This document shows positions 1,846 to 42,516 of a DNA stretch of 64,000 nucleotides, in pieces. The translations under genes and the position numbers were made by a program. Below the pieces are notes generated by a model. The model did not search any database. It was not told where the DNA came from and saw only the letters and a program-made list of their open reading frames with translations. The stretch is from NCBI GenBank assembly GCA_020975725.1, contig QXJR01000005.1, positions 868,001-932,000 on the forward strand. The letters are read 5' to 3'. This stretch comes from Picocystis sp. L7 (Eukaryota > Chlorophyta > Picocystophyceae > Picocystales > Picocystaceae). The number at the start of each line of letters is the position of its first letter. Position 1 is the first letter of the stretch.

Positions 1846-2069
1846 CGTTAGGAACGTGGGCATCCCCCCTTGATTCCTCACCCATTGACCCCCTTCAATG
1901 GATAGTTACTCCTCTACGGAGAGGAGTACTTAACCTCTCTCTCTCACACCTTGTAATTAAGTTGATTTTGACCTCGAAGGTAGAGCCACCTCCCAAGCGC
2001 CTCCTCAACCTCCGAGGCAACTTCCTCCGTGCCGACGGAGTTCAAGAGCAAGGAGCTTCCCTCCTAACA
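1846..2069 (+). repeat. G1 5' LTR
   Basis: 224 bp, aligning end to end with 9007-9230. It ends ...CTCCTAACA. A tRNA-Met-type primer site is not visible immediately downstream, so the primer tRNA is unknown. Confidence 0.9.
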
Positions 2070-2314: not shown

Positions 2315-3223
2315 ATGGTAGAAAAAAAAGAGAGAATGACAAGGATGGAAGAATTGAAAGAAGAGTTGGAGGCATTGAAAGTGCAACTCATCCAACAAGG
2401 TGAAGAGTTGGAGAAGTTAAGAAGTAATCCATCTTCTTCCGTTCAAGATGGAACTTCCACTCAAGCCATTACGATGCCGTCCATCCCTTGCGGGCCCATG
2501 GAGACGATTGCGAGACACAAGACCTTTTCCTTCCATAACGTGGGGGAAGACGCGTTGTCCGAGGCTTTTGAGGCTTGGTGGGGTAGTGTTAGAAGGTGGT
2601 TTGGAAGGCGCAAGGCCCGCCAACCGGATTTGGAGGAATCGGAGTGCGTGGTGGACCTCCTTGACATGATCCAAGGACCCAAGTGCGCCGTCCTCGATTC
2701 TCTTTATGAGAAGGGGACACTTCCCCAAGATTTGGGAGCATTCAAAACATTGTTGATTGAGCTTCACCGTATCTGTCCTTCATCCGAGGCCGCATACAAA
2801 GAATTCGAGAGGGCTTACCAAAAGCGGGACATGACGGTCCGCCACTTCCTACTCCACCTTGAGGAGTTACAAAGGAAGGTGAATTTGGGAGATGGTAAAC
2901 TCATTCCCCATGTGAGTGAGGAGATGGTGTTATTGAAGTTGCGCGGTAGCGTATGGATTGGAATCCGTGACCAACTTCGTGTGAAGTTGGAGGTGGACAA
3001 GCTCGATGGAAATGAGCGGCCGTTGGAAACTACGGAGGAGTGGTTGGAGCTTTTGGAGTATCGTGAGGAGCGCTACGCGCGCCAAAAGGAAGCGCGGGAA
3101 CGCGACGATCAGCGTCAACTGCGTAAGGTGAAAGCCGTCCCCCAAAAAATGGAGCGACCGTCGATGGTAGCGGCTGTGCCGGCGTTGTCGCACCGTCTCA
3201 CGAACGAACAAGAAAAGTTCTAG
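2315..3223 (+). CDS. G1 gag
   Basis: Starts at ATG 2315, 302 residues. Residues about 1-40 form a Glu/Lys/Leu-rich coiled-coil stretch. Residues about 70-230 resemble a retrotransposon gag domain: EAFEAWWGSVRRWFGRR, then FKTLLIELHRICPSSEAAYKEFERAYQKRDMTV and a helix-rich C-terminus. A Cys/His cluster (C-x4-H-x4-C) like a zinc knuckle is encoded just downstream near 3280-3335, as expected at the gag-pol border. The role is the particle core and RNA packaging. It is diverged from the G2 gag. Confidence 0.75.
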   Translation: MVEKKERMTRMEELKEELEALKVQLIQQGEELEKLRSNPSSSVQDGTSTQAITMPSIPCGPMETIARHKTFSFHNVGEDALSEAFEAWWGSVRRWFGRRKARQPDLEESECVVDLLDMIQGPKCAVLDSLYEKGTLPQDLGAFKTLLIELHRICPSSEAAYKEFERAYQKRDMTVRHFLLHLEELQRKVNLGDGKLIPHVSEEMVLLKLRGSVWIGIRDQLRVKLEVDKLDGNERPLETTEEWLELLEYREERYARQKEARERDDQRQLRKVKAVPQKMERPSMVAAVPALSHRLTNEQEKF

Positions 3224-3649
3224 GCTGAATGGATAGGAAAAAAACCAACGCCAAAGGCGATCGAGCGGTGTAAGCAGTTGGGATTGTGCCTTATCTTCCG
3301 TTGCTTAAGCCCCGATCATGTTGCGAACAACTGTCTCAACAAGGGAAGGAGTTCAGAAACGGGAAACGGCCAGGCCCCCGGCAACGGGATACCCCGGCGG
3401 GCATAGAAACAGATTCCCCTTTGAGCAAGTGTGAGGGCAAGGATCCAGTTCATGCCTCCACCATCCAGGTAAGTCCTGCTGGGTCTCACCTCATTGAGGA
3501 AACTGGAAATTGGGCTGAAGATATACCCCTTAATGCAGCCGTGTATGGCGCACGTTCCGATGAAAAAGTTTCAGATATCAGTAATTACCACGTGGACTAT
3601 GCGAGGGAGCGGTCCGCGTTTGAGTTGAGTGATTTGACAATTGGGGCTG

Positions 3650-6090
3650 GGGAGAACCCCCCAGCATCCCTCTGTCCACGGATTGTGGTGAATTTGGCAC
3701 AATCTGGAGGGTTGGCCTTTATCAGGCCTTCCTATGTTGAAGGTACAGAGTTGAGAACATTGTGGAACACCGGTGCAGGGTGTTCCTATATTCACAGAGA
3801 ATTCAGTGTTTTAGGTACCATTGCCAGCAAAGCGCACTTTGTGCGAAGCGTGTTCGCCAACGGCCAGGCACACACGTCCAACGAACTTTTGCAGATTTCA
3901 GTTTCTCTTGGTCCGTTTGATCTGCCCTTGGAAAAACAGATTCAGATAACTATAAAAGTAATACCTATGGATCTACCAAAGAACTTTGATATGACCCTGG
4001 GTTGTGATGTTATGAAACAACTTCAGGCTTCGTTGGACATCGAGCGAAACACCATTCAGTTGAGACATCGCGGACGGATCGTAACCCTGGTCATGGACAA
4101 ACACAAGACAGTAGAGACAACCTCCGTCAACGGTCTGTCATCAGTAAACGTAACGACTGCAGAGCTGACTGCTCAGCACCCAACTTCTTTCAGCACTTTG
4201 GAGGAGGAGTTTGGGCCATTCAGTACCACCCTGTTTGTCTCGGCAACAGCGGGACTGGCAACACTCAATTATGAGGAGCCTGTTGAGGCTTTGGAACGAA
4301 ACTGGACAGAGCTGCCTGGACCGATACTCTGCGTTCCGCCGTTAAGACTACTCCCACAGGTTACGCAGAAATTACGAGCTTCGACACCTATGGACCTGGT
4401 CCTGTTGACACCGTATCTACCCCGCAGTCCATGGTTCAGGGAACTACAGCCCCTAGTGCAAAAGGGTAGGGTGGTTCCATCAGCAGACAGGGCTTATATG
4501 CAACAGATCGAAACTAATGGACACAGTACCCCTGCCTGTGAAATGGTAGCTTTGCAGATCAATCACTATAGCACCGCAGAGGTAACGACGCTAGGAGCGA
4601 TCCAGGTGAACCGTCCAACAGTCACTCGGGAGGCCGTCGAGGGACTACAACTGCCGGAGTCGCTGGACGCAATACAGCAGCAGCAATTAAGACACCTGCT
4701 GCTCAAATATCTGCACCTCATGCAACCACCAGGTGACGACGAACCACCGCCACCGCCATCGGAATTCGACCATCGTATCGTCCTCACGGAGGGAGGGTCA
4801 CAGCGAGTACAAACCCGACCGATACGCTTGGCCGCTGATCAAACTATTGAGTTACAGAAGCGATTTGAACATCGATGCAAGCGTGGAATTATGCAACGGG
4901 CAGCCAGCGACAGCGAGACCCGCAGATCTACAGTTTTCATGGTTAAGCGTAAGGATGGACCTGATCGTGACGTCGTGGACTTTCGAGCGTTAAACGATGT
5001 TACAGTCAAGGATCATTTCCCTCTGCCTCTCATTGAGGAACTGCTGGATCGATTAAGTCAGGCTCGCTTCTTCATAAGCCTAGACCTGAAAGAAGCTTAT
5101 TACAACATTCGCATGCATCCGGACAGTGTAAGGTACACTGGCACCATCACTCACTTTGGTCTATTTGAATGGTTGGTGTTGGTTATGGGAATGTGCAACG
5201 CTGTTGCTACATTCCAGCGTATGATGGATGCCAGATTCCATCACCTCATATATGACAAGCGCACAGTCGCTTGCTACCTCGACGACCTGCTGATCTACGC
5301 GGACAGTTTCCAGATCATGTTCGACACACTTGAGGAGGTGCTTCAGATTTGCGATCGGTACCGGTTCCGACTGAATATGCAAAAAAGCACCTGGTTTCAG
5401 ACTCACCTCACATACCTGGGGCATGTAATTGGGGAGGGACAGTTACGCCCGGACCCCAGACTGATAGGGGCGGTGAGAGAATTTCCCCAACCCAGGATGC
5501 CAACGCAATTGCGATCTTTCTTGGGGCTGGCAGGGTATTACAGAAAATTCATTTCTCGCTTCCAGGAAAAGGCGGCTCCACTTTACGAACTAACTAGGAC
5601 GACAGAACCTTTGGCTGCTCGTTGGGATGAGCGAGCAGAATCGTCGTTTGTTGAGTTGAAGTTAGCGTTAACTTCAGAACCTGTTCTTAGGCTCTGGACT
5701 CCAGGGTACCCAACTGAGCTTCACACCGATGCGTCTAATGTTGGCCTGGGAGCTGTGTTGCTCCAACAACACAGCAGTGGTTGGCACCCCGTGGCTTATT
5801 GGAGTAAATCGCTTCAGGGTGCGCAGAAAAACTATACTACCACTGAACTGGAAATGCTAGCTATTGTCCTAGCATTGCAGACATGGCGGCATTACTTGCT
5901 GGGAATCCCCTTCGTTGTTCGCACGGACCATCAGGCACTGGTGCATTATTTGAACAAGCAACCAGCAAAGCTTCAGCAGCGCGAGTTATCGTGGTTACCC
6001 CGGCTCGCCGATTTCCAGCTTACCATAGTGTACAAGCCTGGAAAGTTTAAGTTGCCGCCCGATGTGCTGAGCCGCGAACGTTCTGCGCTT
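3650..6090 (+). other. G1 pol: protease, reverse transcriptase and RNase H region
   Basis: The protease-like fold is at about 3740-4060 (LRTLWNTGAGCSY ... GCDVMKQL). The reverse transcriptase spans about 4790-5560, with VDFRALNDVTVKDHFPLP, the FISLDLKEAYYNIRMH block and the YLDDLLIYA catalytic motif near 5272. LGLAGYYRKFISRF marks the connection. RNase H spans about 5690-6080 (HTDASNVGLGAVLLQ, TTTELEMLAIVLAL, RTDHQALVHYL) and ends at PPDVLSR, the usual gypsy RNase H boundary. The block lies between gag and the DNMT and is open throughout. Confidence 0.9.
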
Positions 6091-6096
6091 CACCTC

Positions 6097-6950
6097 ACTG
6101 TGCTCGATTTATGTGCAGGGACAGGAACTGTAATCCGCAGCCTGGTCCATGCAGTACCAAACCATGTTCGCATCAATTATATTGCAGTTGAAAACAATGC
6201 CGATTGTCGCACTGCTATTCAGAGAATCTTCACTTTAGTTCAGCGCGACCGTCCAGGTCTCTTCCTGCGCAAGGACATATTCCGTCAGGGTCATGACGTT
6301 AAGGACCTGGCAAACAGGAAACTGCCTGCAGTGGACCTCATCATAGCAGGGGTGCCATGCCAACCTTTCAGTAGAGCGAATCCTGCTGGAAAGGGATTGC
6401 AGGATGACCGCTCGCTATTTCAAGTTGTGCATAAACTACTTATGCACAGCCGAGCTACCTTTTATGCAGTTGAGTGCACTCCGTTTGCCCAGCACTTGCA
6501 AAAAGATCTGGAAGTGGTGCAGCAATGGTTGGGGCAACCTATCCAGCATGACTTAAGTCAGTGGTCAGCGCAACAGCGCACGAGGCTGCTTTGGAGTAAT
6601 CTCGACACTGAAAATATGAAGCCGCTGTCGAAGGAAATTGTCCAGTTGCTTACTTGGCAGGCCTGTCTTCAATCAGGTTGGACAGCGCCGTCCGAAAAAG
6701 CGCCCACGCTGATGGCCAGCTGGGACAACACCCATAATGTCAGAAATGGCCAGTCATTGGTTCAGCAAGAAGGTGGCACTACCACCAGGCAAATGGCTCC
6801 CGAAGAACGAGAATTATTAGTTGGGCTCCAGCCAGGAGACACAGCAGCACCTGGGTTGGATAAATCCACCAGGAACCGTATGCTCGGGAACGCGTTCCCT
6901 GTCTCCTGGATAAACTCCATCATTCGTATCTGGATCAACACCGTCGACAA
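6097..6950 (+). other. G1 cytosine-5 DNA methyltransferase domain inside Pol
   Basis: A domain of about 285 residues inserted between RNase H and integrase with all the main C5-methyltransferase motifs in order. Motif I is VLDLCAGTGTVIRSL (SAM binding). A motif II-like acidic residue sits in YIAVEN. Motif IV is AGVPCQPFSRAN, with the catalytic Cys. Motif VI is AVECTPFAQ, with the catalytic Glu. Motif VIII is QQRTRLLWSNL, and motif X is LGNAFPVSWI. The target-recognition stretch between VIII and X is short, and its pattern (WQACLQSG ... PTLMASWDN) resembles DNMT3-type enzymes rather than DNMT1 or chromomethylases. The domain stays open and looks whole. The expected role is methylation of cytosines in DNA, perhaps the element's own copies. 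Activity is inferred. Confidence 0.92.
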
Positions 6951-7079
6951 CGATGATGTACAAGCAACAGCATGCTATCCTCTTCCCTCACCCGGGGCAC
7001 AGGATAGTCCTTTTTACCAAGCTGAGAATACTACTTTGCAACCTCTGCAATCAGTACTCACAGCGGTCGACATTGGTAA

Positions 7080-8905
7080 GATTAGCCAATTGGATGCGCT
7101 ACTTGCGAAAGCGGCATCGATGGACGCAAGTTATCAGAAACTTCAGGAGACCGATACTCTGCAGAAGGAGGATGGAATCATGTATAAGGTCAGCAAGGGG
7201 CCGAAAGGTTGTATGATCCTAACAACCGCACAGTTAAGAACCTCATCCTGATGACCACGCATGATTTGCCGTACGCTGGTCACCCGGGGGTTCGTAAAAC
7301 CACCGAACTGCTGACGCGCCAATATTACTGGCCTGGAATGCACGAGGACGTCAAATCCTATTGCAAACAATGTTATGCTTGCCAACTGGGCAAAATCAGC
7401 CGGCAGCGCAGCAAGACCATTCTCCATCCTACAGACCATGGGTCGTACCGAAACCGCTGGGTAACACTCGACATAGCAATGGGATTGCCGCCCAGTCACA
7501 GTTACAATGCAGTTCTGGTTGTCGTAGATCGGTTTACCAAATACACCGTCTACATTCCTATCACCACCAGCATCACCGCACCTGAATTAGCCTTTCAGTT
7601 TGAGCGTCACTGGGTCGCTAAACGCGGATGTCTCAGCAACTTGATCATGGACCGAGATACCAAATTCACCAGCGCGTACTGGCACGATTTCATGGAGACC
7701 TTGGGTGTTACAGCCATGCTCACAACTGCTTACCATCAGCAGTCCGATGGACAGACAGAACGTCAAATTGCGACACTAGCGGACCAACTGCGGGTCGCAC
7801 TTATAGATACTTTCAGTTCTGATGACGATTGGTATCAATGCCTGCACATCGCAGAATTTGCGACCAACAACACTGTGCGAGCAACAACAGGGGTCACCCC
7901 CTTTCAGGCAGAGTTGGGTCGCCATCCAACCATGCCCTTGTATTTGCTGCCCGGACCCAGCAACCGTACAATCGACAAGCATGTAGCTGAATTGTGCAAA
8001 TACAGCAGGACGATATATCGTCTCATGGCGATCAATCTCGCCAAGGCTGAGGAACGCATGCAGTATTTCGGTAACCGTACGCGAACCAGTAAAACAATTG
8101 CAAAGGGAGAAATTGCTAAGCTGCAGGGAGGACGTGCGACACGCAGTGATCAGCATAAATTACAGCCACGCTTCCGGGTTACCGAAATTGTCCGCTCTCT
8201 GGGCAAGAATAATTATGAGATCCGCTTGCCGGAGGGCAGCAGCATACACCCCGTCGTGCATGCTGACAAACTGGAAAAGTTTTGGACAGTTGACCCTACA
8301 AAGATTCCGTTGGCTCAGCAACCTGGACCGGCAGTGCTACCGCCAGATACGTCACCGCAACCAGCCGACCAAACGCAGAAATACCCTGTCAGAAAGTACC
8401 TCCTGCGCAACTGGAACTCAGTGCCACCCAGATACTATGTTCAATGGGATACCCTGCCAAAGAATTGGGGTGGGCATATGAAGACGATGCGCTGATCAGC
8501 GACGTCGCTGTCTATGAAAAAGTGAATGGAATCCTGCCAGAAATTGGTATCACTGCTGCCAACAAGGCTGCAGTTCTCAGGCACAAACGCGTCAAATTTC
8601 AGCAAAAATCACCCATCGTTCAGAACACGTGGACTGGCAAAGCTCCATGGGCAGCAGCTATTGGACGGGCGTCCACCGTTAAACTTCCAGGTTTGCAAAC
8701 ATTGCCTACAGCTAATCTGCACAGAATAGTGCAGAAACGCTTTGAGGAACAGGGACTACTAATGTATTACGCTGGACAGGTCGTCACCACCCCCAAAACG
8801 GGTACTGGACGATACACCATCCGTTACACCGACGGATACGAAGAAGCTGTCACACATCAAGAATTGGACAGGCTCCTTTATCGAGCCTCCGCTAGGATAG
8901 ATTAA
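7080..8905 (+). other. G1 integrase and chromatin-reader-like C-terminal tail
   Basis: After a linker (VDIGKISQLDALLAKAA) comes the HHCC zinc-binding head (HPGVRKTTELLTRQYYWPG ... CKQCYACQLGK, about 7260-7400). The DDE core follows: D in VTLDIAMGLP, D in IMDRDTKFTS, E in HQQSDGQTERQ (about 7460-7770). An SH3-like integrase end lies near 8150-8290. A chromodomain-like segment follows (YPVRKYLLRNW ... RYYVQWDT, about 8370-8460), as in chromoviruses. The last 45 residues (YYAGQVVTTP ... YTIRYTDGYEEAVTHQEL, about 8755-8880) have the beta-strand pattern of a Tudor-like fold. G2 keeps both tail segments. The region is broken. Confidence 0.85.
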
Positions 8906-9006: not shown

Positions 9007-9230
9007 TGTTAGGAACCTGGGCATTCCCCCTTGATTCCTCACCCATTGAACCCCTTCAATGGATAGTTACTCCCCTATGGAGAGGAGTACTTAACCTCTC
9101 TCTCTCACACCTTGTAATTAAGTTGATCTTGACCTCGAAGGTAGAGCCGCCTCCCAAGCGCCTCCTCAACCTCCGAGGCAACATCCTCCGCACCGGCGGA
9201 GTTCAAGAGAAAGGAGCTTCGCTCCTAACA
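9007..9230 (+). repeat. G1 3' LTR
   Basis: 224 bp, starting TGTTAGGAACCTGG and ending GCTCCTAACA. It is preceded by the polypurine tract and pairs with 1846-2069. A decayed LTR of the same family lies at 26,462-26,677 on the minus strand. Confidence 0.93.
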
Positions 9231-34949: not shown

Positions 34950-36920
34950 CTATTGGACCTACAGGTCCTACTGACCTGTCCACACAGGCGTACGTGGACA
35001 CGCTTGCCAGCAACTCCTTCTTAAGCATTCACTACTTTGAAAAACTGAAGAAGCATGACCCAACACAGCAGAATTGGAGGCCTACTGGCCAATACATTGA
35101 TTTCAGCCTAGCAGTAGGGACAGAAGTGCACCAGGCCCAAGTTATTCAAGCACAGATTACAATCGATACCTTTCGGGTGAGTCATTATTTTGGTGTGGCC
35201 CCCATTGAGACCTTTGAATGCATACTAGGTGTCGACTTCTGCCACCTCTTCTTGCTGCACATAAACTGGCAGCATCAGTACATGGAGCTTAAACATCCTA
35301 ATGGGACAGTTCATAAAGTACAAGGCGACACAGCATTTATAAAAGCCCGTAAACTTGACCTTATAGTGCCCCCCTCTGAAATCAAAGAGGCCATGCAAAC
35401 AGAAGAATGTTTATTACTAATGGTGCAACCTCTTGATGTCACCTGTGAGCTAACATCTGAAAAACTAGAAACTTCGACCTTCCCCAGTAAGCTCAGTGAT
35501 GCCTGCGCGCTGTCACCCAACGAACAAGAGAGACTGCAGAAGCTGCTCAGCAAGTACGCGCTCTGCTTTGAAAAGCGTACCACCTTACCTTGCGAACGCG
35601 TACCCGGTGAGTCATTCAAGATTCAGCTGGAACCTGGTACTCAGCCGGTGCATCGCAACTATTATCGGTTGTCCCCACAACAGCAGGATGCTCTACGCGA
35701 ACTGCTGACCGAATACGTGGACGCTGGGAAAATGGATGTCTGTGCGGGATCGAGTTGGGGGGCACCTGTCCTCCTCATCCCAAAGAAGGATGGGGGGTGG
35801 AGGGTAGTGTTCGACTATCGAATGCTAAATGCAGCCACAATTAAGGACCGCTACCCGTTGCCGCGAATAGATGACCACCTGCAGAACTTGAGAGGGTCAA
35901 GTATCTTCTCATCAGTAGACGCCCTAGACGGCTTTCACCAGCTTCCCATGAATGGAGAAGATGTTGACAAGACAGCAGTTGTTACTCCTTTCGGCAGCTA
36001 TGTATGGAGGGTTATGCCAATGGGTCTGGCCAATGCCCCTGCAATGTTCCAGAGAATGATGAATCGAATTTTTAGGTATTGCCCTTTTTAAAGGTCTATA
36101 TGGATGACATATTGATACACTCTGTAGATCAAGAGAAACACTTTGAACATTTGGAAGACTTCCTCGAGGTATGCCAGCGTAACGACATACGACTGAAAGA
36201 GTCAAAATGTCACTTCTTCCAACGAACGCTAGAATGGGTTGGTTTTCGCATACATACTGGCCAGCTCAGTTGTGCAGACCATTTGGTGGAGCGCATACAA
36301 AAGTTCCCTAAACCTGTCACACACAAACAAAACTTAGCATTCCTGGGACTTTGTCAATTCTACATGCGCTTTGTACGCAATTATGCAGAGATTGCTTCAC
36401 CTCTTACAGAGCTCACTCGCAAAAAGTACCGCCACGACTTCTGTCGTTTCTGGAAGGCTCAACATTACCAGGCCTTTGAAAACCTTGTGCGTATGCTCAC
36501 TACTGGACCTATTTTACAGTTATTTGATGAAGACCGGCCTATACGCGTTGAGACTGACGCTTCGGATTTGGGTATGGGGGCTGTACTACTACAAGAAACC
36601 TCCCCGAACACCTAGGAACCAGTTGAGTATTACTCTAAAAAGTTCAATTCAGCACAAAGGAACTATCATCCAGCAGAGAAGGAGACTTGTGCTATCGTCT
36701 ACGCTCTGCAGCATTGGCGGCACCTTCTCTTTGGACAGAGATTCACTGTCCTTACAGACAACAAAGCCAGCATGTACTTGCAAAGCAAGTCCGCAGAACA
36801 ACTCAGTCCCCGGGGATCAGCGCTGGACGGCGAAGTTGGCATACTTTGCACCTTTCGCTGTCGAGTACCGCCCAGGATCTCAAAATATCACTGCAGATTA
36901 CTTATCGCTCAACCCCCCTA
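34950..36920 (+). other. G2 protease, reverse transcriptase and RNase H region
   Basis: Protease-like segment near 34,990-35,250 (AYVDTLASNSFLS ... ILGVDFCHLF). Reverse transcriptase at about 35,600-36,350, with LIPKKDGGWRVVFDYRMLN, SSVDALDGFHQLPM and YMDDILIHS near 36,100. RNase H at about 36,540-36,900 (RVETDASDLGMGAVLLQE ... ITADYLSLNP). Broken in places. Confidence 0.85.
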
Positions 36921-36939
36921 GCACACGTCCTCCCATCAT

Positions 36940-37830
36940 CCGGATTTTAGACTTATGTGCAGGTATGGGCACAGTCCTTCGAGCTCTGTGGCATCTCATA
37001 CCAACTGGCTATCCAACACAAGTTGATTACATAGCAGTCGAAATAGAAGAGCATGCCCGAAAGGTAATACAGAGGGTGTTTGCTGAGGTGAACCTAGATC
37101 GACCTGGACTCTTTCACCGCACAGATATTTTCCGTTATGGCAATGATGTACGAGTATTGGCGCATCGAAGAAAGGTACCACCTGTCCACCTGCTTATCGC
37201 GGGGGTACCATGCCAGCCGTTCTCTAAAGCCAATACCTCGCCAGACTACCCCAGTTATGGGCTGCGGGATGAAAGAGAACTTTTTACAACGGTACATACC
37301 CTTTACAACCGACTTGGTCAACCAGATTATATTATCGAATGTACTCCTTTTGCAGGCCACCTTTACAAAGATTTTCAGCAGGTTGCGGAAATGTTTGGAG
37401 AGCCCGCCTTACACGACATGTCCCAGTACTGCCCCCAGAAAAGGAGCAGGTACTGCTGGACTTCGCTTCCGTCCAATTCACGTATATGGCATGTACCCGG
37501 TCTGCCCCTTACCTGGCAAGATTGTTTGACCGATGGAGCTACGGTTCCTACTGGGGCAATGAACCAGCCCGTTCTTAAATGCCCCACTTTGATGGCAACG
37601 AGTAACTCGCATAGTGACCGCAATCGGACAACATGGGTACGTAACTCAGATGGAACTGAAAGAGCGCTGACAGTTACAGAAAAAGAGCGCTTGGTTGGGA
37701 TGGAAATTGGAGACATAGCTGCCGAGAATGTCTCAACAAGCATGCGACATCGGTTGTGCGGCAATGCATTCCCCGTAGCGTGGATAACCAACCTTCTGGA
37801 CCTTTACTTTAAAACACCCACAGGGACGCT
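36940..37830 (+). other. G2 cytosine-5 DNA methyltransferase domain inside Pol
   Basis: Same position as in G1, between RNase H and integrase. Motif I is ILDLCAGMGTVLRAL. AVEIEEHARK gives the motif II acidic residue. Motif IV is AGVPCQPFSKAN, with the catalytic Cys. Motif VI is IIECTPFAG, motif VIII is QKRSRYCWTSL, and motif X is LCGNAFPVAWI. A short recognition stretch (TWQDCLTDGATVPTG ... CPTLMATSN) corresponds to WQACLQSG ... PTLMASW in G1 and has DNMT3-like spacing. The domain is open from end to end. Many substitutions relative to G1, with every catalytic motif kept, suggest it was under selection in the lineage. Confidence 0.92.
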
Positions 37831-38119
37831 TCGACCGCTAGCTAGCCGCAGTCTTACCGAGGCTGTGTGTATTCAAGGCAAACAGTCCACAATCCTGTCC
37901 GCGTTAGCCGATCCGGGCCGTCCATCTTTTGTGCAGCGCCTACGGTCCGCCGCTCTATCTGACCCTCAGTATGAGGCATGGCTGCAATCGCCGCCCCCAC
38001 ATTTGCGTGCCACCAATGGACTGCTTTTTGAAGTCAGCCCTCCAAATCAGATCGATGTCTTCGACGGCCCTGCTGTGGTACTGGTTCCCGCAGATGACGC
38101 CTTACGTCAGGACTTATTA

Positions 38120-39775
38120 CACCTAGTACATAACCAGGCGCACTTTGGTGCAGAGCGTACCTTCGCAAACGCCAAGCGCCACTTCACTTGGAAAGGAATG
38201 AAACAGCATATAAATCACTTTGTCGCGCGCTGTCGAACTTGTCAGATGCAAAAACCAGGAACAACATCTAGGCACCAGCCCCTCTTTGCCGAGACTAAGT
38301 TTTATCCCTATCCATTTCACACAGTGGTAATGGATGTGGTCGAAGGATTGCCCCTTACAGCCAAGGGGCATAATGGGATGCTTACTGTTGTCGATCGTTT
38401 CACGAAGTATGCGATCTACATTGCTATACACACTTCCTGGAGTTCTTTCCGACAAGCGCAATGCTTGCTAGATGCGCTCGTGTACCGCTTCCATACGCCG
38501 TAGCGCATTCACACTGACAATGGGCTAGCGTATCGCGACCTTTTCCAGGCATTCTGCGCTGCAATGGGAGTTCAGCATTCCACTGGAACACCGTATCATT
38601 CACAATCCCAAGGAGGTGCAGAGCGATAGCACCGCACTCTTTTACAGCAGCTGCGCTTAACGTGCGATGACCGTTTAAACTGGGATGACTATTTACAGGC
38701 AGCTGCCCATGCTTATAATGACAGCGTACATGCTGTTACAAAAGTTGCGCCGTTTGTCGCTTTGTTCGGATGCCCTTCAAGGTTGCCCTGGCACTTGCAG
38801 TTCCTAACCTTACACGACAATACAGAGAGTCTCACAGATATGATATCCACAGTAGACCAACGGGTTACTGTCCTACTAGACAAACAGCGGCAGCTATACA
38901 AAACCGTGCTAGAGCATTTGCATACACAAGCTGAGAAATTTCAGGCTCTGCGTTCACAACTACCGACTCGCTCTTTCAAGGTTGGTGATCAAGTGAAAGT
39001 CCAGTATGGCCTGAAGGGGCCAACTGATAAACACAAACTGGACCCATACTACGTCGGTCCATTCACCGTTACTGAAGACTTGAGAAAAGGGGCTTACAGG
39101 CTACAACTGCCCCCTGATTCGCCCTATTCTGACCGCTTCAATGCTGACCGTTTGGCACCGTGGTTTGATTCAGATTTAACGCTCTTCCCTTCACAAGAAC
39201 CTACTGGTGCATCCACCTCCCTTCCCGTGGATGCCAACGTGGAACCCGCCGTAATCATACAGCGCTATCTATTGAGAGACTATCAACTCTTCCCCCAACA
39301 GCCTGTTCGTTATTGGGTCAAGACAACTTCAACTACAGAACCCTACATGTGGGTCAATGAAACTAGTGAACTACTAGATGAGTTTTTGGTGCTGGAGGAA
39401 AACAATGGCTGCATTCCCGAACAGGGCATTACTGCCTCTAACCTTGAGAAAGTGGAACAGCATAAACACCAAGTATATTTACAGTATCCAGCACCTATAT
39501 TAGTGAACACCTGGACTTCTTCAAAGCTACCATTCCAGACCCGACGAAGACCGACTTACAAGTCACCCCATAACCTGCAACAGGCAGTGGTGCAACAGTT
39601 GTTTCATGCCTCCGATGGCACACAAGCATACTTTCAAGGCATGGTGATTGGCACATCGGGTGAAAACTATTGCGTGCGCTGGACTGATGGGATCGAGCAA
39701 AGTTATACAGCTACTGAGATACGTGCGATGCTATATGACCCCATCAGTTATGTGTATGACTTTCTTCACGTCTGA
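38120..39775 (+). other. G2 integrase and chromatin-reader-like tail
   Basis: Zinc head HNQAHFGAERTFANAKRHFTW ... CRTCQMQK (about 38,130-38,250, first block cut to 20). DDE core: VVMDVVEGLP, HTDNGLAYRDLF, YHSQSQGGAE (about 38,330-38,625). The SH3-like end is VGDQVKVQYGLKGPTDKHKL. The chromodomain-like segment is IIQRYLLRDYQLFPQQPVRY followed by WVKTTSTTEPYMWVNETSEL (about 39,250-39,390). The Tudor-like end is AYFQGMVIGTSGENYCVRWT followed by DGIEQSYTATEIRAML (about 39,625-39,735). Broken in places. Confidence 0.85.
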
Positions 39776-40387: not shown

Positions 40388-42516
40388 GGCCATGAGGTTT
40401 GCAAGGCACACGGTTTCTGACAAGAGCACAATATTCCATGGCAAAGTTCCAAAAACGTTTGTCCAGACCACCATCCAAGAGCACTGCGCGCACTTTTTCC
40501 AGAATTGTCCTGTTATATCGTTCTGCGTTTCCATTTTGCTGTGGAGTGTATGGTGCACTCGTCTGTTGCTGGATGCCGTTTTCTTGCAAGAAGTTTTGTA
40601 ACTCTGCATTGAGAAATTCGGTTCCACGATCCGAACGCACAAACTTCACAGCATTTCCGGTTTGCTTTTCCAATAGCCGAATCACCGTTTTGATGACAGC
40701 TGCTGCTTGTGATTTGTTGCAAATAGGTTTTGCAACCCCCAGTTTGCTCTTCTCGTCCAGAATGCTGACAATGTATTTTTCTCCGTTCTTTCCAGCAGGC
40801 GTGATGGGTCCCATCAAATCCATATGCAACAATTCTCCAACATTTGCTTGATTTTCTTCATTTCCTTTGGGAATAGCAGATCTGGCTTGTTTGGCTTGGA
40901 TGCACGTTTCACAACTGATTTTGTTCCACTTTAGATTGTCTGGTACACCTACCACGGTGTCGTGCAACTTTTCCATCTGGCCAAAATGAGCCAATTTTCT
41001 GTGCCACTCCATGGCTGAGAAAACGTTTTCCATTTTTCCACAGATCACGTAAAGACCATTTTTCTGCACCGCACTGAGGACTTTCTGCTTTCCTTTCCAA
41101 ATCGCACATTCCCCATTTTCAAAGTACACGTTGCATCCACGTTCCATCAGTTTTGGAACCAAGATAAAGTTCACCCGTAGTTCCGGGCAAAACAGCACCT
41201 TCTCCAATTCCACGTTTTCAGCAAGAGCAACGGTGCCAGATTGCTTGGCGTGCACTACTTCTCCATTTCCAACCAAGATGGACTGCGGCGATGCTTCTTG
41301 TGTCAGGGATGTAAACATCTCTTGTTGAGCGCAAACATGAGCGATGGCGCCGCTGTCCACGATCCAGATGTTTTCCAAACAGTTTGCATTTCCACATTCC
41401 AAATCGTAAGAGACCAGTGCAACCTTTTCATCCGTCTCCCTATCGTTTCTTGGCTGTTTCTGCAGATGTGGAGGCAATCCGTTCAGGTACCAGCATTTTT
41501 CGCGGCCATGTCCACTTCTGCCACAATAGCTGCAGGTAAACTTCGGTCGTCGGTTCTGCGTAGCGAAAGCAACCTGGCCTCTAGATGTCTCTCGCACGGT
41601 GATGGCACTTTCTGCCTGGAGAAGCTGATTCTGAATGTTGAGCATGTCTGTCTCTCCCAAGGTAGTCAGCATCTCTACCTTGTTGGCATATTCCTCCGGC
41701 AGGCCAGATAGGATCGCATCGATCAGATGGACGTCAGTCACCGACCCATCGATCGCGCGCAGGTTGGTGCAGATCTGCTTTCCACGCATGATGAAGTTCA
41801 TCATGCTTTCCTCCGGTTTCTTGGTAAGTCCTGTTAACTCCTTGCGTAGGGTGAGACGGCGTGCGGCAGTTTGACCCGCGTGCATGTCCTCGAGCATTGT
41901 CCACGCATGCTGCGCAGATTCAGAGTTCGCCACCAAGTCCACATACTCATTGCTCACACACAAGCACATGAGTGCCAATGCCTTTTCAGAGTGTTCACTG
42001 TCTTTGTTTGTGATAGCATCACCAACTCCTTTGGTGACCAGCAAAGCTTTCATCCGATGTTTCCATATCGGGAAGTTTTCGGAGTTCAGTTTCTCGAAGT
42101 TCACTCCTTCCATTTTATTTTTGTTTTTCTCTGTTCTCTTTTTTGTTTTTTTTTGCGTTTTGTTTCTGTTTTGGTTTCAGTTGTTTTCTGTTTTCTTCTG
42201 CTTCAAACGGGCTCCGATACCAGGTAAGAAGCAGGGCGTTGACGTTGGATACGTTCGTGGGTTGCCACCTTCGTAGTTGTGTATTACATGCAAGAATGAG
42301 TGGTGAGTATCCCCACTCAATGGCGGCTTCATCGACCGCAGAGGACCTCTGAGTAAACCGGGATCCCTCCTCGTCGGTATCGAACACTGCAGGAATGGGC
42401 ATCGCCCTTCGAGGACCCACAGGGGCCCCATACTCCTCGAAGGTACTCGACCGAAACTCGGTCGTGGTCCCTAAGGGATTCGACCTCCCAGGGACCAGGG
42501 CTTGAGCAGCCTCAAC
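40388..42516 (-). mobile_element. copia B1, 5' part (LTR, gag, protease, integrase)
   Basis: On the minus strand: 5' LTR (42,516-42,223), an A-rich leader, then gag from MEGVNFEKL (42,113) through the zinc knuckle CSYCGRSGHGREKC, protease WIVDSGAIAHV and integrase up to RNRVPCKPHG. The element is truncated at 40,388, where the G2 LTR begins. At 42,516/42,517 the LTR lies against copia C. The visible part is open and very similar to B2. Confidence 0.92.
42223..42516 (-). repeat. copia B1 5' LTR
   Basis: 294 bp. On the minus strand it runs from TGTTGAGGCTGC to the primer site at 42,211-42,222. Near-identical to the other B LTRs. Confidence 0.92.

Follow-up and report, generated by a model that had tools for sequence, protein, structure and literature searches.

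A DNMT3-like C5-cytosine methyltransferase domain in the Pol of Ty3/gypsy retrotransposons from a chlorophyte-like green alga

We analysed a stretch of 64,000 nucleotides from contig QXJR01000005.1 of Picocystis sp. L7 (hereafter, the window), which contains a Ty3/gypsy long terminal repeat (LTR) retrotransposon of a chlorophyte-like green alga. The Pol of this element has, after RNase H and ahead of integrase, what we read as a DNMT3-like C5-cytosine methyltransferase (MTase) with which the element would mark its own DNA; we give this reading, self-marking mechanism included, a probability of about 0.7. The domain is complete, with conserved catalytic residues and a predicted DNMT3-like fold, and it belongs to a single MTase clade, conserved by selection, which several gypsy families have in common despite their great divergence. 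Silencing of transposons is normally the work of de novo methyltransferases. Where an element has retained its own MTase over a long radiation, one can ask what benefit the methylation of DNA brings to a transposon.

The MTase stretch matched the Pfam family DNA_methylase (PF00145) (E = 5.1e-12; 46.3 bits, with the cut-off at 22), a significant outcome of the profile check against C5-methyltransferases that the initial annotation of this DNA had proposed. Together with the presence of all five motifs (I, IV, VI, VIII and X; Table 1) and of reverse transcriptase (RT) and RNase H in the same open reading frame (ORF), this confirms the complete-looking MTase in a gypsy Pol described there. The catalytic Pro-Cys (motif IV), Glu (motif VI) and QxRxR (motif VIII) follow one another in order within the MTase fold. 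In an alignment of 12 MTase rows (A1), diverging from the window MTase by up to 66%, the Pro-Cys, the Glu and the Q-R-R of motif VIII were invariant in 12/12 rows. The annotated motifs with their catalytic residues stood as regards order and the Glu; in motif VI, Cys replaces the usual Asn. DRM (rearranged) MTases have a circularly permuted motif order, and a DRM-type enzyme was ruled out, the window motifs running I-IV-VI-VIII-X in the standard order. A chance match was likewise ruled out by the E-values, the fold and the conserved copies.

Both by sequence profile and by predicted fold, the best solved-structure matches of the window MTase were to DNMT3, with 21–23% identity to DNMT3A/B when the predicted fold was structurally aligned. 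Motifs IV and X, with the recognition stretch between them, span 193 residues compared with 197 in DNMT3A, in agreement with the short DNMT3-like recognition stretch noticed earlier; profile, predicted fold and spacing all back the DNMT3-like type. The enzyme is therefore DNMT3-like in predicted fold and probably in action. In a tree of 26 rows (16 retroelement MTases, four phage rows and no more than two rows for DNMT3, of which one is partial), the 16 retroelement MTases formed one clade (support 100/99), while DNMT3A/B joined the four phage MTases (98/94) to the exclusion of that clade, and did so again (99/97) when the long branches P0026 and host DNMT2 were left out. The approximately unbiased (AU) test, with its two DNMT3 rows, rejected neither a retroelement plus DNMT3 clade (p = 0.133) nor a retroelement plus phage clade (p = 0.129). 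Because the tree places DNMT3A/B with the phage enzymes, yet the AU test rejects neither grouping, we call the domain "DNMT3-like" and do not assign it to the eukaryotic DNMT3 family. A DNMT1 or CMT type was rejected, as the tree sets both DNMT1 (L001) and CMT (L031) of the host apart.

The element itself has RT-RNase H ahead of integrase (rve/H2C2) and LTRs of the form TG...CA, as in Ty3/gypsy elements. Its two LTRs differ at 14 of 224 positions (repeat detection gave 223 bp at 94%), the flanking candidate target duplications match at 4/5 bases, and a purine-rich stretch precedes the 3' LTR. At least 40 matches to the same LTR occur genome-wide, several in pairs ~7.16 kb apart. The Pol ORF is open from stop to stop, with hmmscan matches to RVT_1, RNase H and DNA_methylase; its protease motif (3766–3786) reads NTG in the window copy and DTG in a related protein, P0001. 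RNase H, MTase and integrase had been placed in one open stretch: the first two do share the Pol ORF, but the integrase lies in another frame. The Tudor-like domain of the tail is suggested by PF18359 (E = 1.9e-5) and PF21743 (E = 2.3e-5), both below cut-off, and a possible chromodomain-like stretch ahead of it was seen by eye and in predicted secondary structure in the L043 copy only. P0001 (71% over the MTase region) is continuous over 1813 aa, and close copies in the genome have open frames of up to 1877 codons. Because integrase and tail of the window copy lie in other frames while these relatives are continuous, the window copy is probably broken, through decay or mis-sequencing, its MTase domain being complete.

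Table 1 Features of the window element and related loci (window positions unless a locus prefix is given)
Feature	Position	Strand	Remarks
5' LTR, 224 bp	1846..2069	+	first base C versus T in 3' LTR; flank CCGAC
gag-like ORF	2315..3223	+	called by position; no Pfam match
Pol ORF, 1325 aa (1325 codons)	3274..7251	+	protease-like part, Dam-like segment, RT, RNase H, MTase
Dam-like segment, between protease and RT	4195..4650	+	homologous to PF05869 domain of L055 family
Reverse transcriptase core	4975..5430	+	RVT_1 match; YLDD at 5275-5286
RNase H	5623..6015	+	PF17919, PF17917
DNMT3-like C5-cytosine methyltransferase domain	6094..6963	+	profile, motifs, alignment, predicted fold
Motif I, DLCAGTGT	6106-6129	+	translated motif
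Motif IV, GVPCQPFS	6349-6372	+	translated motif
Motif VI, VECTPF	within 6466-6486	+	translated motif
Motif VIII, SAQQRTRLLW	6565-6594	+	translated motif
Motif X, RMLGNAFPV	6877-6903	+	translated motif
Integrase, frame other than that of Pol ORF	7188..8495	+	H2C2 zinc finger; matches to rve and an SH3-like domain slightly below cut-off
C-terminal tail, third frame	8294..8905	+	Tudor-like domain ~8723-8878
3' LTR, 224 bp	9007..9230	+	TG...CA; flank CCCAC
Second MTase domain in window, same kind	36944..37816	+	in gypsy-element ORF 36338-38500; 45% identical to first
L066, part of host DRM-like gene	G000:C20:156478-156858		PF00145 match in 402-aa frame; 127 residues read
L055	G000:C25:796000-800500		gypsy family with Dam-like C-terminus, divergent stretch replacing C5 MTase

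Used as a query, the window MTase gave at least 137 matches in 20.5 Mb, and a further MTase family (L033, L036, L037 and others) is 34–37% identical to it. The order RT-RNase H, MTase, integrase was found in 8/8 frames in which each of these parts was matched over 90% of query length; the frames represent seven elements (L005 being L033) and come from the family of the window element, G1 (one), a second family (four) and a third family (three). Tails follow the integrase in these gypsy families. MTase and RT trees contain the same groups, an agreement judged by eye on differing row sets. Among 150 scored RNase H copies (of 204 candidates), 115 had a C5 MTase when it was sought 200–1400 bases downstream. 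The 35 copies with no detected MTase comprised 28 of the L055 family and seven others, five of which were examined: L056, L057, L058 and L059 do carry MTase sequence, which was not among the matches listed, and the L060 stretch was too short. Almost every gypsy-type copy examined thus carries a methyltransferase-type domain.

Within G1 (10 copies), the MTase of the window compared with six relatives of measurable dS gave dN/dS of 0.13–0.28, and RT-RNase H of the same pairs 0.04–0.16. Of all 45 G1 MTase pairs, 24 were measurable, 19 of them at 0.10–0.29 and the rest at 0.33–0.51; between subfamilies of the third family, values were 0.07–0.08 at dS 1.4–1.8. LTR pairs in six second-family loci were 98.6, 99.2, 99.8, 99.8, 100 and 100% identical. 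When 15 loci were tested for long terminal repeats, six had pairs, L041 proved to be a tandem-array overlap, and eight had none inside the stretch examined. At G000:C4:1048000-1067700, three element copies stand in tandem with LTRs between them and their MTases exactly 7149 bp apart, as expected from LTR-LTR recombination.

Domain, predicted fold, conservation and co-inheritance are thus observed features of an enzyme from which we infer cytosine methylation. The MTase would be carried as part of Pol in the virus-like particle or pre-integration complex, where it might act on newly made double-stranded cDNA, or on the fresh insert, by adding 5-methylcytosine (5mC). An insert marked in this way would resemble methylated host DNA and could be maintained by host DNMT1 and CMT, and the integrase tail (Tudor-like, perhaps chromodomain-like) may direct the integrase to marked chromatin. 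Selection might favour such marking because it camouflages the element where the genome is methylated, protects its cDNA or controls expression at the site of insertion, possibilities raised by de Mendoza et al. (PMC5890265) with regard to other elements.

Several observations weigh against self-marking by an active enzyme. CpG is only mildly depleted, and not in the element alone (observed/expected: element 0.82, window 0.78, two host loci 0.82 and 0.97), and CpG transitions were only 1.3–1.7 times as frequent as other C/G transitions in five copy groups, a comparison made without a control family; these figures neither support nor exclude self-methylation. Close pairs in the second and third families had dN/dS of 0.23–0.67, with one value of 1.44 on 10 differences, as would be expected of decaying copies, and offer no proof of constraint. 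Canonical motif VI is E-N-V, a usual but perhaps not indispensable sequence; in the window it is E-C-T, and the Cys that stands in place of Asn is found in 12/12 A1 rows. For KnitGypsy-Dnmt3, the DNMT3-type MTase in a gypsy Pol of Klebsormidium nitens, no methylation in yeast is reported, a result its authors regard as inconclusive (de Mendoza et al. 2018, PMC5890265).

The altered motif VI would fit a domain kept chiefly for a structural or nucleic-acid-binding role in Pol (a spacer, or a module binding S-adenosylmethionine or DNA), catalytically weak or dead. So would the L055 family, where the stretch at the C5 MTase site has neither motif I nor motif IV and still gave dN/dS of 0.20 between two copies (dS 0.325), because of which a stretch at this site can apparently persist without catalytic motifs. 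The Pro-Cys, Glu and Q-R-R, invariant in A1 despite the divergence of its rows, argue for catalysis instead, and we consider retention for structure unlikely. It is very improbable that the enzyme targets RNA of the element or the host in the manner of DNMT2: DNMT2 chains do rank second in the PDB profile search, and an RNA target is discussed for LINE-type enzymes by de Mendoza et al. (PMC5890265), but DNMT3 comes first by sequence and by predicted fold, and host DNMT2, albeit a long branch, groups apart from the window MTase.

A separate question is whether the MTase derives from a phage or bacterial DNMT3-like enzyme and not from a eukaryotic DNMT3, a tentative alternative that we hold to be somewhat unlikely. 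Phage MTases match the window MTase (tblastn E = 8e-11), and two tested of the four have DNMT3B as best PDB match (E = 1e-25 and 9e-31). The host DRM-like L066 is barely similar to the window MTase, at 23.5 bits over 127 aa that cover the N-terminal motifs only, below its 48.9 bits to a phage MTase. A retroelement plus phage clade nevertheless fares no better in the AU test than one with DNMT3, and the sampling is restricted to two DNMT3 and four phage rows. The phage MTases concerned (FPSV-S27, Epa40, MaeS and BU2-2) are C5 MTases of similar length, but stand-alone (268–304 aa) and grouping with DNMT3A/B outside the retroelement clade. A scan of viral contigs with A1 for a viral carrier gave 17 pattern matches, none confirmed as a relative, and four plasmid records match weakly (best E = 4e-4).

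Besides the DNMT3-like domain, the window polyprotein contains a Dam-like segment that aligned with the PF05869 domain of L055 at 33% over 89 aa (E = 2e-12, a single comparison) and by itself matched nothing in Pfam or PHROGs; judged by this homology, one polyprotein holds two MTase-derived domains, a Dam-like one (adenine MTase family) and a C5 MTase. In L055 itself, the Dam match reached E = 1.4e-11 (5.7e-13 for a fragment), and PHROG 111, DNA methyltransferase, matched with E = 9e-16. Within the L055 family, a Dam-like match lies 1.5–4.5 kb downstream of RNase H in 26/28 copies, and a second one upstream, at terminal-repeat spacing, in 23/28. The 101 Dam matches genome-wide are often paired ~8.1 kb apart, and therefore the Dam-like region of the L055 family probably extends into the LTRs. 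The PP motif of adenine MTases is (D/N/S)PP(Y/F/W); because HPPC in L055 and VPPL in the window depart from it, activity of the Dam-like domain is doubtful.

At the C5 MTase site of L055, 265 residues continue the alignment, and their dN/dS indicates that they are under constraint. Homology of this stretch to a degenerate C5 MTase is suggestive only. In its favour, BLAST from RNase H ran co-linear through the first ~90 MTase residues of P0010, P0017, P0016 and P0019, local alignment to P0017 gave z = 4.2, the top value among 41 MTases (1.7 and 2.6 for two control L055 stretches), and a weak BLAST match linked it to the L058 MTase fragment (22%, E = 0.004 with six loci searched). Against it, the mean z over the 41 MTases was only 0.6 (-0.6 for the window MTase), hhalign with A1 gave a probability of 2.5 (E = 0.018), a profile test was not significant (44 of 1078 scored shuffles, of 2000 made, reached the real score), and the PDB held no convincing match (best E = 0.13). 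That an MTase is obligatory in gypsy elements of this algal lineage, C5 in most families and, where the C5 domain degenerated, a C-terminal Dam-like one as in L055, seems to us distinctly doubtful; if true, marking of the element's own DNA would be selected for, whichever base is marked. The genome allows C5-MTase families to be compared with one Dam-like family.

Retrotransposons with a captured MTase are already known from other algae, as the initial annotation stated for charophytes and dinoflagellates, and KnitGypsy-Dnmt3 is the published precedent for a DNMT3-type MTase in a gypsy Pol. Like the window element, KnitGypsy-Dnmt3 is a multicopy LTR Gypsy element whose Pol ORF includes a Dnmt3-type MTase lacking introns, and purifying selection is seen in both (reported Ka/Ks < 0.2; PMC5890265). 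Its repeats are DIRS-arranged, whereas the window element has plain direct 224-bp LTRs, paired ~7.16 kb apart in this and other copies. The window lineage further differs, in a comparison by description, in its chlorophyte-like host, its at least 137 matches in several diverged families, the E-C motif VI, the Dam-like segment and the Tudor-like tail. Neither among the 26 homologues found nor in the single one from a second search could a Klebsormidium sequence be recognised. SymbioDIRS-Dnmt3 of Symbiodinium also has a Dnmt3-type MTase within a retroelement Pol and was shown to methylate CG in yeast (PMC5890265), but is a DIRS element with a tyrosine recombinase, in contrast to the rve-type integrase of the window element. 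The catalytic domain of animal DNMT3A/DNMT3B, the best sequence and fold match, shares the motif order and has a similar IV-X spacing; the window MTase differs in E-C for E-N, in its fusion to Pol and in the low identity of the structural alignment, and a Pfam search found neither PWWP nor ADD in its protein.

According to PMC6338049, green algae have gypsy and DIRS elements that encode a DAM or DCM domain. DNMT3 is reported as not identifiable in MMETSP green algae (PMC9998398); a recent survey reports DRM in streptophytes only and, in the passages concerned, mentions DNMT3 in retrotransposons for streptophytes and dinoflagellates only (PMC12344493). The DRM-like L066 in a chlorophyte-like genome contrasts with this streptophyte restriction of DRM. 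A literature search, mostly outside subscription journals, found no paper on this lineage, on near-universal MTase presence or on the Dam-like alternative.

The genome thus holds a large stock of a DNMT3-like enzyme in retrotransposons beside its own DRM-like gene, L066, whose PDB matches were 4onj (E = 1.7e-19), DRM2 (8e-15) and DNMT3A (7e-8). A genome search with PF00145, ignoring introns, gave at least 121 matches, part of which were examined. The host CMT has BAH and chromodomain, with 7ubu and 4fsx, which we take to be CMT3/ZMET2, as best PDB matches, and a DNMT2 is also encoded. On C1, the host ORF L032 (3938–7012, +) contains MTase motifs together with stretches that, by eye, are PWWP-like and PHD-like; possibly it belongs to the "ChloroDNMT" class of PMC12344493. 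Over the region searched, host DNMT1 shares ~70% identity with its counterparts in Picochlorum, Coccomyxa and other chlorophytes. A EukProt entry under the name Pavlova lutheri matches it at 100% identity. Because Pavlova is a haptophyte and the other neighbours of L001 are chlorophyte, the name on that entry is probably mistaken or due to contamination. A record from Camellia fascicularis (P0029), which outranks named green algae for DNMT1, also looks like contamination (entries concerned in these comparisons: L001, P0027 and P0029). Elsewhere in the window, positions 40388–63612 form a dense nest of direct and inverted repeats, with inverted arms of 0.2–3.3 kb that are 71–99% complementary.
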